Source: Ruminococcus sp.
Lineage (GTDB): Bacteria; Bacillota; Clostridia; Oscillospirales; Ruminococcaceae
Reading direction: 5' to 3'
Assembly: GCA_029060305.1 (NCBI GenBank)
Contig: JAIDUG010000050.1
Span: forward strand, 1-64,000
DNA length: 64,000 bases
Shown in pieces: positions 2,945 to 42,664 of this stretch (the first letter of the stretch is position 1; the number at the start of each line of letters is the position of its first letter). The notes under the pieces are model-generated. The model saw only the letters and a program-made list of their open reading frames with translations. It ran no database searches and was not told where the DNA came from. Both the position numbers and the translations under genes were made by a program.

Positions 2945-3004
2945 ATTATGTACTTCTCCTTAAAATAGTAGTAGTACATAATATTCAGCGTTACCGGAAA
3001 AATA

Positions 3005-3667
3005 TTACAGTCTTATGACCCTGTTGAATATCGCACAGAATTTCATAGGAATGTACTTGTCTATATGGCACTTTCCGAAAAACCATCTTTCATACTGACA
3101 GGTCTTGATAAGCTCCTCAAGAAAAGCGTGAACTTCCAGCCTTTCAAAAACGTCAACCCTGAGGCAGTCTTTTAGTGAAGCTGGCGGTTCGTGGGTAATT
3201 ATGTAGTCGACTTTATTGTTGTTATCGGAAAGATTTCTGAGACCGGAAGTTATTTCGTCATATGTAGGCTGTTCACGTTCCCACCAGTTTTCGCTGTCAC
3301 GCCTGAATTCATAGTCGTGACTATGACCGCCACCGAATGCAAATATTTTTCTGTTTTCTATTGTATAGACTTCTCCACGCATAAGATGTACTATATTTCT
3401 TGAAATCCTGTGTATTCTGCCACCTTTCCATATTTCAATGGGGTACTTTTCAAGTAAGTCAAAATTTTCGTGACAGCCGTCTATAAAAGCTATTGTGTAA
3501 TCTTTTGCTGAAAGTTTCTTCAGCGTTGAGATTTCAGTTTTTGAACCGTTCCATATGAAGCCGAAATCTCCGCATATAATAAGAGTATCGCCTTTGCGGA
3601 TTTTCCGGAAGTCCGGCGACCTGAAACGTTCAATATCTCCGTGAGTATCTCCTGTTACATAAATCAT
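3005..3667 (-). CDS. metallophosphoesterase
   Basis: GDTHGD, GDFGF, HEPP motifs; SD before ATG 3667. Confidence 0.85.
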   Translation of the reverse strand: MIYVTGDTHGDIERFRSPDFRKIRKGDTLIICGDFGFIWNGSKTEISTLKKLSAKDYTIAFIDGCHENFDLLEKYPIEIWKGGRIHRISRNIVHLMRGEVYTIENRKIFAFGGGHSHDYEFRRDSENWWEREQPTYDEITSGLRNLSDNNNKVDYIITHEPPASLKDCLRVDVFERLEVHAFLEELIKTCQYERWFFGKCHIDKYIPMKFCAIFNRVIRL

Positions 3668-37778: not shown

Positions 37779-40121
37779 ATGATAAATACTGACAAGTTTA
37801 CAAAAAAAGCGGTTCGGATTATTGAAAACGCTGTCAACATAGCTTCGGAACTGGGACATACCTATATAGGAAGTGAACATATTTTACTTTCGATTACCGC
37901 AGACGGTACAACAGGAGCTTCAGAGATTCTTATAGAAAACGGCGTGGCTTATGATGACCTCAGACGTGAAGTTATACATCTTGTGGGACAGGGAACTCCG
38001 TCCATTCTCAATCAGAGATACTTCACAACAGCAACGAAAAAAATTCTTGAAACTTCATACAACATAGCCTTGACGGACAAGAAACGTCAGGCAACTCCGG
38101 AACATATTTTAGCGGCAATTATCCGTGAGTCCTCGTGCAGTGCCTGTACGATAATAAAAAAAATCGGCGGAAATCTTACCGGCATATGTGGCGGACTGAA
38201 TCTCATTCATTCCTCAGAAGTACAGGCGGAACTCCTTGAGGCTGTAAAACCAAAAATCTCGCAGTTACCGAATCTTTTCAGGTACGGAAAAAACCTTACA
38301 GATATAACGGTAGTCAAAAAAAATGACCCGCTTATTGGCAGACAGAATGAAATTGAAAGAGTTTTGCAGGTTTTATCAAGACGTAATAAAAATAATCCAT
38401 GTCTGATAGGAGAAGCAGGTGTGGGAAAGACCGCTATCGTTGAGGGTGTAGCAGAGCTTTTTGTGCGTAATCTTGTTCCGGAATCACTCAGAAACAAGTT
38501 TATATTTGCACTTGATTTCACTTCATTGCTTTCGGGTGCAAAGTACAGAGGAGATTTTGAGGAACGTATGAAAGCCTGTCTCGACGAGGCTGTAAATGCC
38601 GGTAACATAATACTTTTTATTGACGAAATTCACACAATAGTCGGAGCAGGTGCGGCAGAGGGTGCTATCGACGCTGCCAATATTATGAAACCTCAGCTTG
38701 CACGTGGAGAACTTCAGATAATAGGTGCGACTACTTTTGAAGAATACCGTAAGACTATCGAAAAGGATTCCGCACTTGAAAGACGTTTTCAACCAATAAG
38801 TGTTAATGAGCCTGCTATTGAAAACTGTATCGAAATAATTAACGGTCTCAAAAATAATTACGAAAATTATCACGGCGTTGAAATAAGTGAAGAAATAATA
38901 TCTTTGTCTGTAAATATGTCTGTGCGGTATATATCAGAAAGGTTTCTGCCGGATAAGGCTATTGACGTACTTGACGAAGCCTGTGCCTGTGCGAAAATCC
39001 GTTGCAGTACAGGAGTATTGACGAAAGATACGGAATATATAAATATGAATACTGCAAAATGTCGTTTAAGCGGAATAAGGAAAATTATAAACGGAAATGT
39101 CCGGCCGAGAGTGTTGAAAGAGGATATTATATCGGTTATTTCAATGAAGACAGGTATTCCGCTTGATAAGATAAGTGTGCGTGACGCTCATGAACTGAAT
39201 TTTCTGAAAATAAAGCTGTCGGAAAGGGTCATCGGTCACGAAAACGCTATAAACAAGATTACAAACGCCATATGCCGTGCAAAATCAGGGTTACGTGACG
39301 GAAACCGTCCTACAGCATCATTCCTGTTTGCAGGACCTACGGGAGTAGGAAAAACAGAACTTGCCAAGGCTCTTGCCGACTGTATGTACAGCTCCGGAAA
39401 CAATCTCATAAGGATTGATATGTCTGAATATATGGAAAAACATTCAGTATCAAAACTTATCGGAGCTCCTCCAGGGTACGCAGGTTACGACGAACAGCCG
39501 AGTAATCTATGCGAAAGAGTACGCAGAAATCCTTATTCATTATTACTTTTTGACGAAATTGAAAAAGCCGATATTGAGGTTTTAAACGTTCTTTTGCAGA
39601 TACTTGACGACGGTATTCTGACAGATTCAACAATGAGACGTGTAAGTTTCAGAAACTGCATTATAATTATGACTTCAAATATAGGTGCTGACCAGTTGAG
39701 CAGAAAGTCATTAGTCGGTTTTACTGAAAATCCCGAAACAGCTAATGAAGATTACGTCATGAAAAGGCTGAGAGAACATTTCACACCTGAATTTATCAAC
39801 AGAATTGACGAATTAGTAGTATTTCGACCGCTTGTACATGATGACCTGATGAAGATAAGTCAAATAACTCTCGAAAATCTCCGTATGCGTGCAAGAAGTC
39901 TGGGCATAGAACTGAGTTATTCGCCGAAAGTGATTGAAACTGTTGCTTCTGCCAAAGAGACAGAAAAATACGGTGCAAGACCTATAAAAAGACGTGTTAC
40001 TGAACTCATTGAAAACGAACTCGCCGGAATGATAGTACGTTCTGAAATAAAAAGCGGTGAGACGGTACAGGTTGAACTCAAAAACGACAAGATACTTTTC
40101 CTCAAAGGTGCAATAGTATAA
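37779..40121 (+). CDS. clpC: ClpC-like AAA+ unfoldase
   Basis: Clp N-repeat, two Walker A sites ([26 protein letters not shown]), VGF ClpP loop. Confidence 0.9.
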   Translation: MINTDKFTKKAVRIIENAVNIASELGHTYIGSEHILLSITADGTTGASEILIENGVAYDDLRREVIHLVGQGTPSILNQRYFTTATKKILETSYNIALTDKKRQATPEHILAAIIRESSCSACTIIKKIGGNLTGICGGLNLIHSSEVQAELLEAVKPKISQLPNLFRYGKNLTDITVVKKNDPLIGRQNEIERVLQVLSRRNKNNPCLIGEAGVGKTAIVEGVAELFVRNLVPESLRNKFIFALDFTSLLSGAKYRGDFEERMKACLDEAVNAGNIILFIDEIHTIVGAGAAEGAIDAANIMKPQLARGELQIIGATTFEEYRKTIEKDSALERRFQPISVNEPAIENCIEIINGLKNNYENYHGVEISEEIISLSVNMSVRYISERFLPDKAIDVLDEACACAKIRCSTGVLTKDTEYINMNTAKCRLSGIRKIINGNVRPRVLKEDIISVISMKTGIPLDKISVRDAHELNFLKIKLSERVIGHENAINKITNAICRAKSGLRDGNRPTASFLFAGPTGVGKTELAKALADCMYSSGNNLIRIDMSEYMEKHSVSKLIGAPPGYAGYDEQPSNLCERVRRNPYSLLLFDEIEKADIEVLNVLLQILDDGILTDSTMRRVSFRNCIIIMTSNIGADQLSRKSLVGFTENPETANEDYVMKRLREHFTPEFINRIDELVVFRPLVHDDLMKISQITLENLRMRARSLGIELSYSPKVIETVASAKETEKYGARPIKRRVTELIENELAGMIVRSEIKSGETVQVELKNDKILFLKGAIV

Positions 40122-40123
40122 TC

Positions 40124-40193
40124 AAAAAAAGAATCACTGAACGACTTAAGTTTGACTGAAAAATCAGCTACACTTATCGGTCGTCAATGATTC
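40124..40193. terminator. long hairpin at the clpC 3' end and ncRNA copy 2 3' end
   Basis: GAATCACTGAACGAC / GTCGTCAATGATTC near-perfect stem; T7 run on the minus strand. Confidence 0.75.
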
Positions 40194-40277
40194 TTTAAAA
40201 TAACACCTGTTCAGCTACCGGGTTATCAGACCCGCTCTCAAATGACTACCGTCACCGAGGATGCCCCAACAAGTGTT
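40124..40277 (-). ncRNA. putative structured small RNA, copy 2
   Basis: Perfect consensus promoter upstream; terminal stem AACACTTGTT/AACAGGTGTT with two internal hairpins; T7 terminator. Confidence 0.65.
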
Positions 40278-40283
40278 AATATA

Positions 40284-40312
40284 ATTATATCACAATTATA
40301 TTGATTTGTCAA
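40284..40312 (-). promoter_or_regulatory. promoter of ncRNA copy 2 (TTGACA, 17 bp, TATAAT)
   Basis: Both hexamers match consensus; predicted +1 at about 40277 is the first base of the terminal stem. Confidence 0.8.
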
Positions 40313-40325
40313 GTGAAATCAAGAA

Positions 40326-40412
40326 TAAAAATAACACTTGTTGAAGCTGACAGTGTTTTTCGCACAACAGTCAATAGCAAAAACGCTACCGAAGATACTT
40401 CAACAGGTGTCA
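40326..40412 (-). ncRNA. putative structured small RNA, copy 1
   Basis: Diverged homolog of copy 2 with matching stems; own promoter; U-rich tail after the terminal stem. Confidence 0.6.
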
Positions 40413-40418
40413 TTTTAC

Positions 40419-40447
40419 AGTATACAACGATTTTACGAATTTGTCAA
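40419..40447 (-). promoter_or_regulatory. promoter of ncRNA copy 1 (TTGACA, 17 bp, TATACT)
   Basis: Minus-strand hexamers at 40447-40442 and 40424-40419. Confidence 0.75.
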
Positions 40448-40480
40448 GAAGTATGACGGAAATTTTTTAAAAATCCTTAT

Positions 40481-42664
40481 TCACTCCTCTTTTTTTCTGT
40501 GTCTGATAAGTAATGTTGAAGCAGTTACAGCCAATACCGCACCTGCTCCCACAACAACGCTTGCTTTCGGAGCAGACTGTGTTGATTTTTTGATTTTTTC
40601 TTCTGTACCGTCTGTTGAAATAGTCATAATGTGTTTGCCTGTTTCGTCGTTCACGAACATCTCGCTATCTTCAATATCAAACTCAATATTTTTTCCGTCA
40701 GCAATATTTACGTTTCTATAACTCTTTGAAAAACCGTTCATATCGTTTATTGAAATCTCAAGAATTTCGTCGGTGTTGCCCGAAAAATTTATTTTATAGT
40801 TTCCGTCAGACAGAAATATATATGTGTGTTCGTCATCGGAAAGAATTTTAAGACTTTCTTGCTGAATCGGAAAGTTATTTTTCATCACCTCAAAATCCGC
40901 ATACGGATTATTCAGAGTTATCTGTCTGTATGTTGTATAGTCGGCAGTATCGGGAAGATTTTCAGCATAAATTTTCGGCTCATAAAAGTCCATACCGAAA
41001 CCGCCTACATCAAAAGTAACTGTTTTTCCGGACTTTGTGCCGAATGGTACTAATGTTACAATATCGCTTTCATTCATAACGTTTATTATATTCGGACAGT
41101 CAACAGCAGAATTATAAACGCATGGACTTCCGAATGTATAGATAAATATATCTTCTGATGGAATTTTCAGTACAGAATCCGGACTGTTTATTTCTTTGCC
41201 CAACAACATAGCACTTGCACCGCCTATGCTATGACCGCTTATTAAAATTTTCAGTTTACCATTCTGTGCGGAATTGAGTATATCGTGTGTAGAAATATAT
41301 TCGTCAAGAGCGTTTTTCACCCTTATGTAAAAATCATAGTAATCAGGGTTTGTCGTGCTGTCGCCGAATGGCTGACTGAAATCCTTGTCAATCTGTTCAT
41401 AGAAATCTTTTTTTCCGCTGTTGCCTTTCAATGTGACGACAAGCAAAGTGGTTTCCCCTATTGCACGTGAAGCGATAGAAAACGAATAATCTTCTGACGG
41501 ATAACCGTATATTTCTATATTGTCGGAAGTAAAACCAAGCTGTCGGTATGCGGAATTTATATAGTAACCTGTTTCACGTCTGCCATTATATGAAGCTGAA
41601 CTCAATGCAACAGCTACTTCCGCAATATCCTTGTGATATTCCGTTGAATCCTGATTAAACATATCTTCAGTTATTTTCGTATCAACTGCTCCGCCGTAAT
41701 ACCTCACACCGTCAGGAATGTCATTGACTGTAGCGTTTATGTACTTATAACCATAGTGTGCCAAAAGTCCGTTTTCTTCGTTTGTGTCGAAATATACAGA
41801 CTGTCCGAATCTTTGCCCGTCCGGAACTTGTGGTATCAGGTCGCTTTCGTTTATTACGTTTATGATGTTGTCGCAGTCAACAACCGTTGTGTCACCGTAA
41901 TATACATTCGGACAGGCAAAACTGTACACAAAAATATCATTCTGCGGAATATCAAGTAATGCGTTGTACATAAAGTTTACAGCTTCATTTCCTGAAAAAC
42001 CGCTGTAATTATTATCGTCATGGGTATTGAAATATGCTCCTAAAAGATTAGTACCAGCACCGCCGAGGCTATGTCCTGTTATGAGAATTTTCAGACTGCC
42101 TTTTTCAGCGGATTCCGCAATTTCGGGATGTTCTTCAATGTAGAGACTCATTCCGACTGAAACTTTTCTGAAAAAATTAACAAACCCGGTCGGAGAACTC
42201 TTTTTATAGAAGTCTGTACCGAATATTGAAATATCGTGCAGAATATCACTTGTGCTGTTGAGATTCGTACCTCGCAGAGTTACAACAAGCAGACGTGTAT
42301 CGTCAAATTCCGTTGTTGCAAGCGAAAACGCCAAAGAATCATCTGTTGTATTTATCAGATTTGTTTCATAGTCGGCGTTGTTTTTTTTGTCTGTATAACC
42401 GAAAAGTGTTACATCATTTTCAACGTTAAAACCGAGTTTTTCGTAAGCGTTATTTAAATTTTCGCCGTTGTAAGCACACTGGCTCAGTACGGACGATAAC
42501 AAAGCAATATCCTTATGGTATCCGTTGGAATTTTGTGAAAACATTTCTTCATTTATCGAAACTTCCGCTGAACCGTTTCCGAAATCAATTGTTGCGGTAG
42601 TGTTTCCGACAGCAGAAAAAATCATAACCGTACTTAAAATATTTGCAATTATCAATTTAAACAC
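40481..42664 (-). CDS. secreted, membrane-anchored tandem lipase-like (class 3) alpha/beta hydrolase
   Basis: Two GHSxGGA nucleophile elbows in duplicated halves; signal peptide; C-terminal TM plus RHRKKEE. Confidence 0.8.
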   Translation of the reverse strand: MFKLIIANILSTVMIFSAVGNTTATIDFGNGSAEVSINEEMFSQNSNGYHKDIALLSSVLSQCAYNGENLNNAYEKLGFNVENDVTLFGYTDKKNNADYETNLINTTDDSLAFSLATTEFDDTRLLVVTLRGTNLNSTSDILHDISIFGTDFYKKSSPTGFVNFFRKVSVGMSLYIEEHPEIAESAEKGSLKILITGHSLGGAGTNLLGAYFNTHDDNNYSGFSGNEAVNFMYNALLDIPQNDIFVYSFACPNVYYGDTTVVDCDNIINVINESDLIPQVPDGQRFGQSVYFDTNEENGLLAHYGYKYINATVNDIPDGVRYYGGAVDTKITEDMFNQDSTEYHKDIAEVAVALSSASYNGRRETGYYINSAYRQLGFTSDNIEIYGYPSEDYSFSIASRAIGETTLLVVTLKGNSGKKDFYEQIDKDFSQPFGDSTTNPDYYDFYIRVKNALDEYISTHDILNSAQNGKLKILISGHSIGGASAMLLGKEINSPDSVLKIPSEDIFIYTFGSPCVYNSAVDCPNIINVMNESDIVTLVPFGTKSGKTVTFDVGGFGMDFYEPKIYAENLPDTADYTTYRQITLNNPYADFEVMKNNFPIQQESLKILSDDEHTYIFLSDGNYKINFSGNTDEILEISINDMNGFSKSYRNVNIADGKNIEFDIEDSEMFVNDETGKHIMTISTDGTEEKIKKSTQSAPKASVVVGAGAVLAVTASTLLIRHRKKEE

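Follow-up and report, generated by a model that had tools for sequence, protein, structure and literature searches.

Structured small RNAs written antisense to LPD3 polyvalent genes of Clostridia, with putative free-standing derivatives in Ruminococcus

The window analysed here, a stretch of 64,000 nucleotides from a Ruminococcus sp. contig, carried representatives of an unlisted class of structured RNAs. Elsewhere, promoter, fold and terminator of this class were found overprinted opposite a conserved protein domain, LPD3 of large polyvalent genes belonging to phages and conjugative elements from gut Clostridia, with codon-level evidence and in several families of Clostridia. Both the RNA class and its promoter were well supported. 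The copies of the window had no such gene opposite them and would be derivatives that left it.

The locus lay on the minus strand of contig C46 in a genome of 2.47 Mb, between a clpC-like and a lipase-like gene (Table 1). An earlier note, made from the letters alone, had proposed two homologous structured small RNA genes at this place, each with its own promoter and each folding as a terminal stem enclosing two hairpins, and all of this was borne out. Both promoters were confirmed where they had been placed, and both copies were recovered by covariance model R1 (93.5 bits for copy 1 and 66.3 bits for copy 2). The RNAs were about 85 nt long and displayed a closed terminal stem and a T-rich tail; their fold z values were -4.14 (copy 1) and -4.13 (copy 2), none of 200 shuffles being equally stable in either case. 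The note had not recognised the family, and indeed no match at gathering score was encountered in Rfam 15 for the window and nine related loci, relaxed thresholds yielding matches at chance level only. A 6S-like role, which had also been raised, found no support: these RNAs are 85-nt, branched molecules without Rfam match, whereas 6S RNA is a rod of about 180 nt with a central open-promoter-like bulge.

The two tandem elements were real, but the region was found to hold three. The long hairpin with its T7 tract had been taken as the end of copy 2; it appears to serve as its terminator but is a separate element (fold z -8.56), with a promoter of its own elsewhere. Its homologs L013 and L014 each carried a TTGACA-17-TATACT promoter, placed antisense to SISYLSELVK or a relic of it; they also had the opposite-strand words ESLNDLSLT or ESLNNLSLT in common with the third hairpin. 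This promoter and these common words indicate that three types stand in tandem in the window. Separately, a stem-closed "element B" with a T-run followed a copy-2-like RNA and preceded a metallophosphoesterase-like ORF at two loci (L010, about 1617-1710, and L026, downstream of 138) and may be a fourth type. A short stem with the family's GAAGTATCTT, beside a heavy-metal-binding-protein-like ORF of the same genome (G000:C44:22872-22917), may be a decayed copy.

Table 1. Features of the RNA locus and its surroundings (positions in the window)
Feature	Positions	Strand	Description
Copy 1 promoter	40447-40419	-	TTGACA-17-TATACT, 11/12 consensus, near-perfect sigma-A
Copy 1, type-1 RNA	40412-40328	-	P1 terminal stem, P2 and P3 hairpins, then UUAUUUUUA
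Copy 2 promoter	40312-40284	-	TTGACA-17-TATAAT, 12/12 consensus, sigma-A, extended TG
Copy 2, type-2 RNA	40278-40197	-	R1 model, fold
Third element	40196-40124	-	Long imperfect hairpin and T7; appears as copy 2 terminator
LPD3-gene coding relic opposite copy 1 and its promoter	40322-40477	+	46% identity, one stop, 2-bp frame shift
LPD3-gene coding relic opposite copy 2	40192-40316	+	KITPVQLPGYQTRSQMTTVTEDAPTSVNIIISQLY, stop, FVK
Putative ClpC-like ATPase gene, convergent neighbour	37779-40121	+	ORF; named by sequence resemblance
Putative secreted protein, two lipase-like repeats, upstream of the RNAs	40481-42664	-	ORF; named by resemblance

Free-standing copies, which no longer code for protein, have kept the fold through compensatory change. 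Among nine free-standing type-1 copies, the three-helix fold retained 97.6% of its pairs, 16 of 28 pairs were changed on both sides and none of 500 shuffles was as good, while controls with slid partners brought pairing down to 29-53%. The same covariation result was obtained when coding copies were included. Compensatory changes, previously read from the two window copies, were thereby extended to many homologs. P1 was only 70% alike among free-standing copies, yet 97.8% of its pairs were kept, with double changes. Common flanks identified L050 and L053 as one locus in two species, and compensatory changes were displayed there in both P1 and P2. Variation within the type-1 RNA peaked at the P2 loop (identity 0.47), the only place where frame-breaking indels were found in L057 and L067; J1/2 (UAUC) and the P3 loop (CUGAAAA) were nearly fixed. 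A pseudoknot between J1/2 UUCGG (alignment positions 20-24) and P3-loop CUGAA (51-55) was 97% paired with zero covariation and is not claimed. G-U cells far exceeded C-A cells in free-standing (41 versus 4) and in coding copies (41 versus 0), which puts the RNA on the minus strand of the window. The free-standing counts settle the orientation assigned earlier, which had carried a caveat over one C-A mismatch in copy 1.

Homologs were gathered by DNA and covariance-model (R1) searches of 125 genomes of the genus. Firm homologs were present in about a dozen genomes of Ruminococcus, including R. flavefaciens, and further copies were found in an Oscillospiraceae bacterium (L078; G635/L119 has an identical sequence) and an uncultured Clostridia bacterium (L084). 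The nearest relatives of copy 2 were the free-standing L059/L010 and L060, which lies within an LPD3 gene. Free-standing copies occupied ordinary chromosomal intergenic regions; one of them (L078, about 2950-3300) stood beside a tyrosine-integrase-like ORF. Coding and free-standing copies co-occurred in two genomes (G002 and G183), while the window genome itself contained no LPD3 gene. A phylum-wide sample gave no match, which sets the range known so far at the class Clostridia, but it contained no positive control and is a weak negative; a scan of viral sequences with the bare RNA pattern and tblastn of LPD3 queries against phage and plasmid collections were likewise empty. Several candidates were discarded: many blastn matches to the promoter region were strong but ordinary promoters of the genus, such as those preceding tRNA genes, low-scoring R1 matches (L062, L063, L064, L069 and L072) fell in coding sequence and had neither promoter nor fold, and matches outside Clostridia in a degenerate-pattern scan of genome contigs were due to chance.

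Seven homologs were enclosed by a long opposite-strand open frame, which contained the LPD3 domain (PF18798) of large polyvalent genes and measured 3,400-4,055 residues where the contig was long enough. This location inside LPD3 genes had not been anticipated in the earlier note. One of the frames (L085) came after a topoisomerase gene, as is typical of conjugative elements. In reverse complement, the SIPQLYEFVK codons gave the antisense promoter and the IKI codons the T-run of the terminator. Antisense TTGACA (6/6), a spacer of 17 and TAnnnT were encountered at the same helix in every one of the 26 distinct LPD3-type genes examined, which came from viral contigs and from several families of Clostridia; the -10 forms were TA followed by TACT, CAGT, TAGT or CTGT, and Val-Lys was written GTC-AAG in all 26. 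LPD3 proteins of other architecture, devoid of the ISxLYxxVK helix (L110 and L118), were left out of this count. Each of the 26 nested RNA loci thus lay opposite a protein gene with its own promoter, as cis-antisense small RNAs do, while the window copies faced a relic only. Most of the 26 genes displayed a stem-closed RNA after the promoter in spite of unrelated linker sequences. Across LPD3 families the loops differed while promoter, stem and terminator persisted, and no conserved loop or sequence motif was common to the families of these 26 genes. Four genes from viral contigs (L132, L133, L135 and L137) contained nested RNAs with a common GGGCUA-hairpin-UGAACCC-like core inside the terminal stem, and in L137 an ART-PolyVal domain came next.

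The predicted LPD3 structure consisted of helices followed by a four-strand meander; its best PDB match was NTF2-like (E 0.009, TM about 0.3), and a BECR-type RNase fold received no support from the fold search. The linker between strand and helix was of low confidence (pLDDT <50, residues 165-178) and is probably disordered according to the model. LPD3 homologs from other families displayed the same strand-linker-helix order with unrelated linkers. As this order is common to other families and the linker is of low confidence, this segment is ancestral to the protein and leaves space for an RNA.

Conservation of the antisense promoter exceeds what the protein demands. Among seven Ruminococcus genes, pS over promoter and RNA (43 codons) was 0.351 against a gene median of 0.583, the lowest value, with no non-overlapping codon window below it; with only four close genes, 0.8% of codon windows were lower in synonymous divergence. 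Promoter codons were invariant in the seven genes although rare: V=GTC (10%), K=AAG (18%), S=AGT (21%) and I=ATA (20%). Synonymous shuffles were also performed, in which codons were redrawn 300 times according to the usage of the gene concerned, leaving the protein unchanged. The promoter score was reached in ≤3.3% of draws in every one of the 26 genes (p ≤0.033) and in none of 300 draws in most, these p values not being independent since the genes are related within subgroups. The terminal stem reached p ≤0.05 in 19 of the 26; the remaining seven had no stem beyond synonymous shuffles. In a different part of the long frame, over its first ~200 codons in L049, L051, L052 and L055, synonymous divergence (~0.05) was below non-synonymous divergence (~0.15), and another frame is therefore probably the true gene there.

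The window copies still carried traces of such a gene. The earlier note had stated that no ORF explains the RNAs, which is true only in part: the strand facing each copy holds the broken remains of LPD3-gene coding sequence. Opposite copy 1 the plus strand reads IKITLVEADSVFRTTVNSKNATEDTSTGV and, past the frame shift, SIQRFYEFVKKYDGNFLKI; opposite its promoter it resembles the LPD3-gene codons (S)I..FYEFVK, and former coding sequence can be traced by similarity beyond the -35 box. The plus strand facing copy 2 reads KITPVQLPGYQTRSQMTTVTEDAPTSVNIIISQLY followed by a stop, FVK and a further stop, and opposite the copy 2 promoter IIISQLY, a stop and FVK. From these resemblances we infer that the window copies are escaped, gene-less derivatives of RNAs nested in LPD3 genes. 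The likeliest course would be that the RNA arose within the gene and became free-standing afterwards, because the promoter-bearing helix belongs to the ancestral protein.

The explanation we prefer, to which we give about an even chance, is that the nested RNA acts as a cis-antisense regulator of the polyvalent mRNA and that escaped copies were kept for action in trans on the same gene of mobile elements. The small RNA would start at the promoter written in the codons of the ISxLYxxVK helix, cross the linker between the last LPD3 strand and this helix, fold into a stem-closed structure and end at its own terminator. It would then pair in cis with the polyvalent-gene mRNA and lower its expression, in the manner of plasmid-control antisense RNAs; the window copies would persist through activity in trans, the likeliest target being this gene in elements that arrive or already reside in the cell. 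Divergence of the loops, while promoter, stem and terminator stay, is what is expected of gene-specific antisense control. Calculated duplexes between free-standing RNAs and coding mRNAs reached -68 to -115 kcal/mol versus about -26 kcal/mol for shuffled sequences, but such long-duplex energies follow from common ancestry and are no proof of pairing in the cell. A further step, possible though on the doubtful side, is that chromosomal copies provide host-side RNA immunity derived from the element's own gene, which they would silence in trans at entry, while copies in the elements act as a built-in brake or incompatibility determinant. Any such immunity is not absolute, as two genomes hold both free-standing and coding copies.

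Against the antisense reading, a nearly fixed J1/2 and P3 loop with a free P2 loop fit a protein- or RNA-binding site equally well. The RNA could thus bind protein, as antitoxin or cofactor of LPD3 or of the neighbouring ADP-ribosyltransferase domain, free-standing copies being anti-addiction or immunity RNAs like solitary antitoxins. In favour of this are the unpaired, near-invariant J1/2 and L3 amid covarying stems of free-standing copies, the fusion of LPD3 to ART-PolyVal in phage versions, and the toxin-like enzymes carried by polyvalent proteins (PMC5512222). Because LPD3 families have no loop or motif in common, the LPD3 model matches neither an RNase nor an RNA-binding fold with confidence and toxicity of LPD3 is not known, we consider protein binding unlikely. 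It is more improbable still that the window copies are decaying LPD3-gene fragments from a lost mobile element, with promoter and hairpin as functionless leftovers. Stops and frame shifts in the plus-strand coding similarity, and its continuation past the -35 box of copy 1, are what decay would leave. Decay does not account for P1 pairing kept through double changes, for promoters that are still perfect or near-perfect, or for a locus that still covaries in two species (L050/L053). This explanation is disfavoured, since covariation goes on after loss of the frame (L057 and L067).

Two readings place the function elsewhere. A DNA-level element, in which hairpin and promoter are used on single-stranded DNA at conjugative entry or replication in the manner of plasmid leading-region ssDNA promoters, would suit a position within phage and conjugative-element genes that act at early entry (PMC5512222) and a hairpin adjoining the promoter. 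The hairpin nevertheless follows the promoter without forming it, the G-U/C-A asymmetry points to RNA on one strand, the terminator-like tail is conserved and free-standing copies lie in ordinary intergenic DNA, all of which renders this very improbable. Hardly any weight is given to a riboswitch or attenuator acting as cis-regulatory leader for downstream genes: tandem elements L010/L026 and L053 do stand upstream of ORFs with ribosome-binding sites, but in most copies the terminal T-rich tail is not closely followed by a same-strand gene, the RNA strand of the window heads into the convergent clpC gene, and nested copies are antisense to their gene.

LPD3 (PF18798) polyvalent proteins, whose genes host the nested RNAs, were described by Iyer et al. 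2017, which covers the proteins only and where the words antisense and noncoding RNA are absent (PMC5512222). Of the open-access papers searched, this was the only one to contain both "polyvalent proteins" and "LPD3", and no report of an LPD3-antisense RNA was found in their texts. A human-microbiome screen listed thousands of candidates, 2,022 of them possibly overlapping coding regions (PMC8040213), and could include this class unrecognised. RNA searches limited to intergenic DNA miss such classes. With the antisense reading, the poorly understood polyvalent LPD3 genes gain a candidate regulator, which suggests a new control route over the LPD3 gene for mobile elements and perhaps for hosts; the free-standing copies would illustrate how RNA genes leave a mobile-element coding region and become independent chromosomal genes. 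The promoter depends on a handful of synonymous codons, which makes its role directly testable by altering them alone.

Like the type III RNAs ToxI and CptI, the LPD3-class RNAs are compact, structured, sometimes in tandem and tied to mobile-element conflict; unlike them, they do not form upstream repeats that a cognate toxin cuts, and the window copies, flanked by clpC-like and lipase-like ORFs, had no ToxN/CptN/TenpN-type toxin gene beside them. Type I toxin-antitoxin systems include antisense RNAs such as RatA of txpA and RalA of ralR. LPD3 RNAs resemble these in being antisense to a mobile-element gene, but differ in lacking a small hydrophobic toxin ORF and in spanning the linker of a large multidomain protein. 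Plasmids are controlled by cis-encoded antisense RNAs, among them CopA of R1, RNAI of ColE1 and FinP of F. Like these, the LPD3 RNAs are short and highly structured, with a constitutive-looking promoter opposite a mobile-element gene, their own terminator and loops diverging between families. In contrast, they lie deep in a giant polyvalent coding region and not in a leader, their promoter is written in the codons of a conserved helix, and they have free-standing chromosomal copies. Cis-antisense RNAs are a known kind; what appears new is the LPD3 class, together with the promoter written in codons and the free-standing derivatives.
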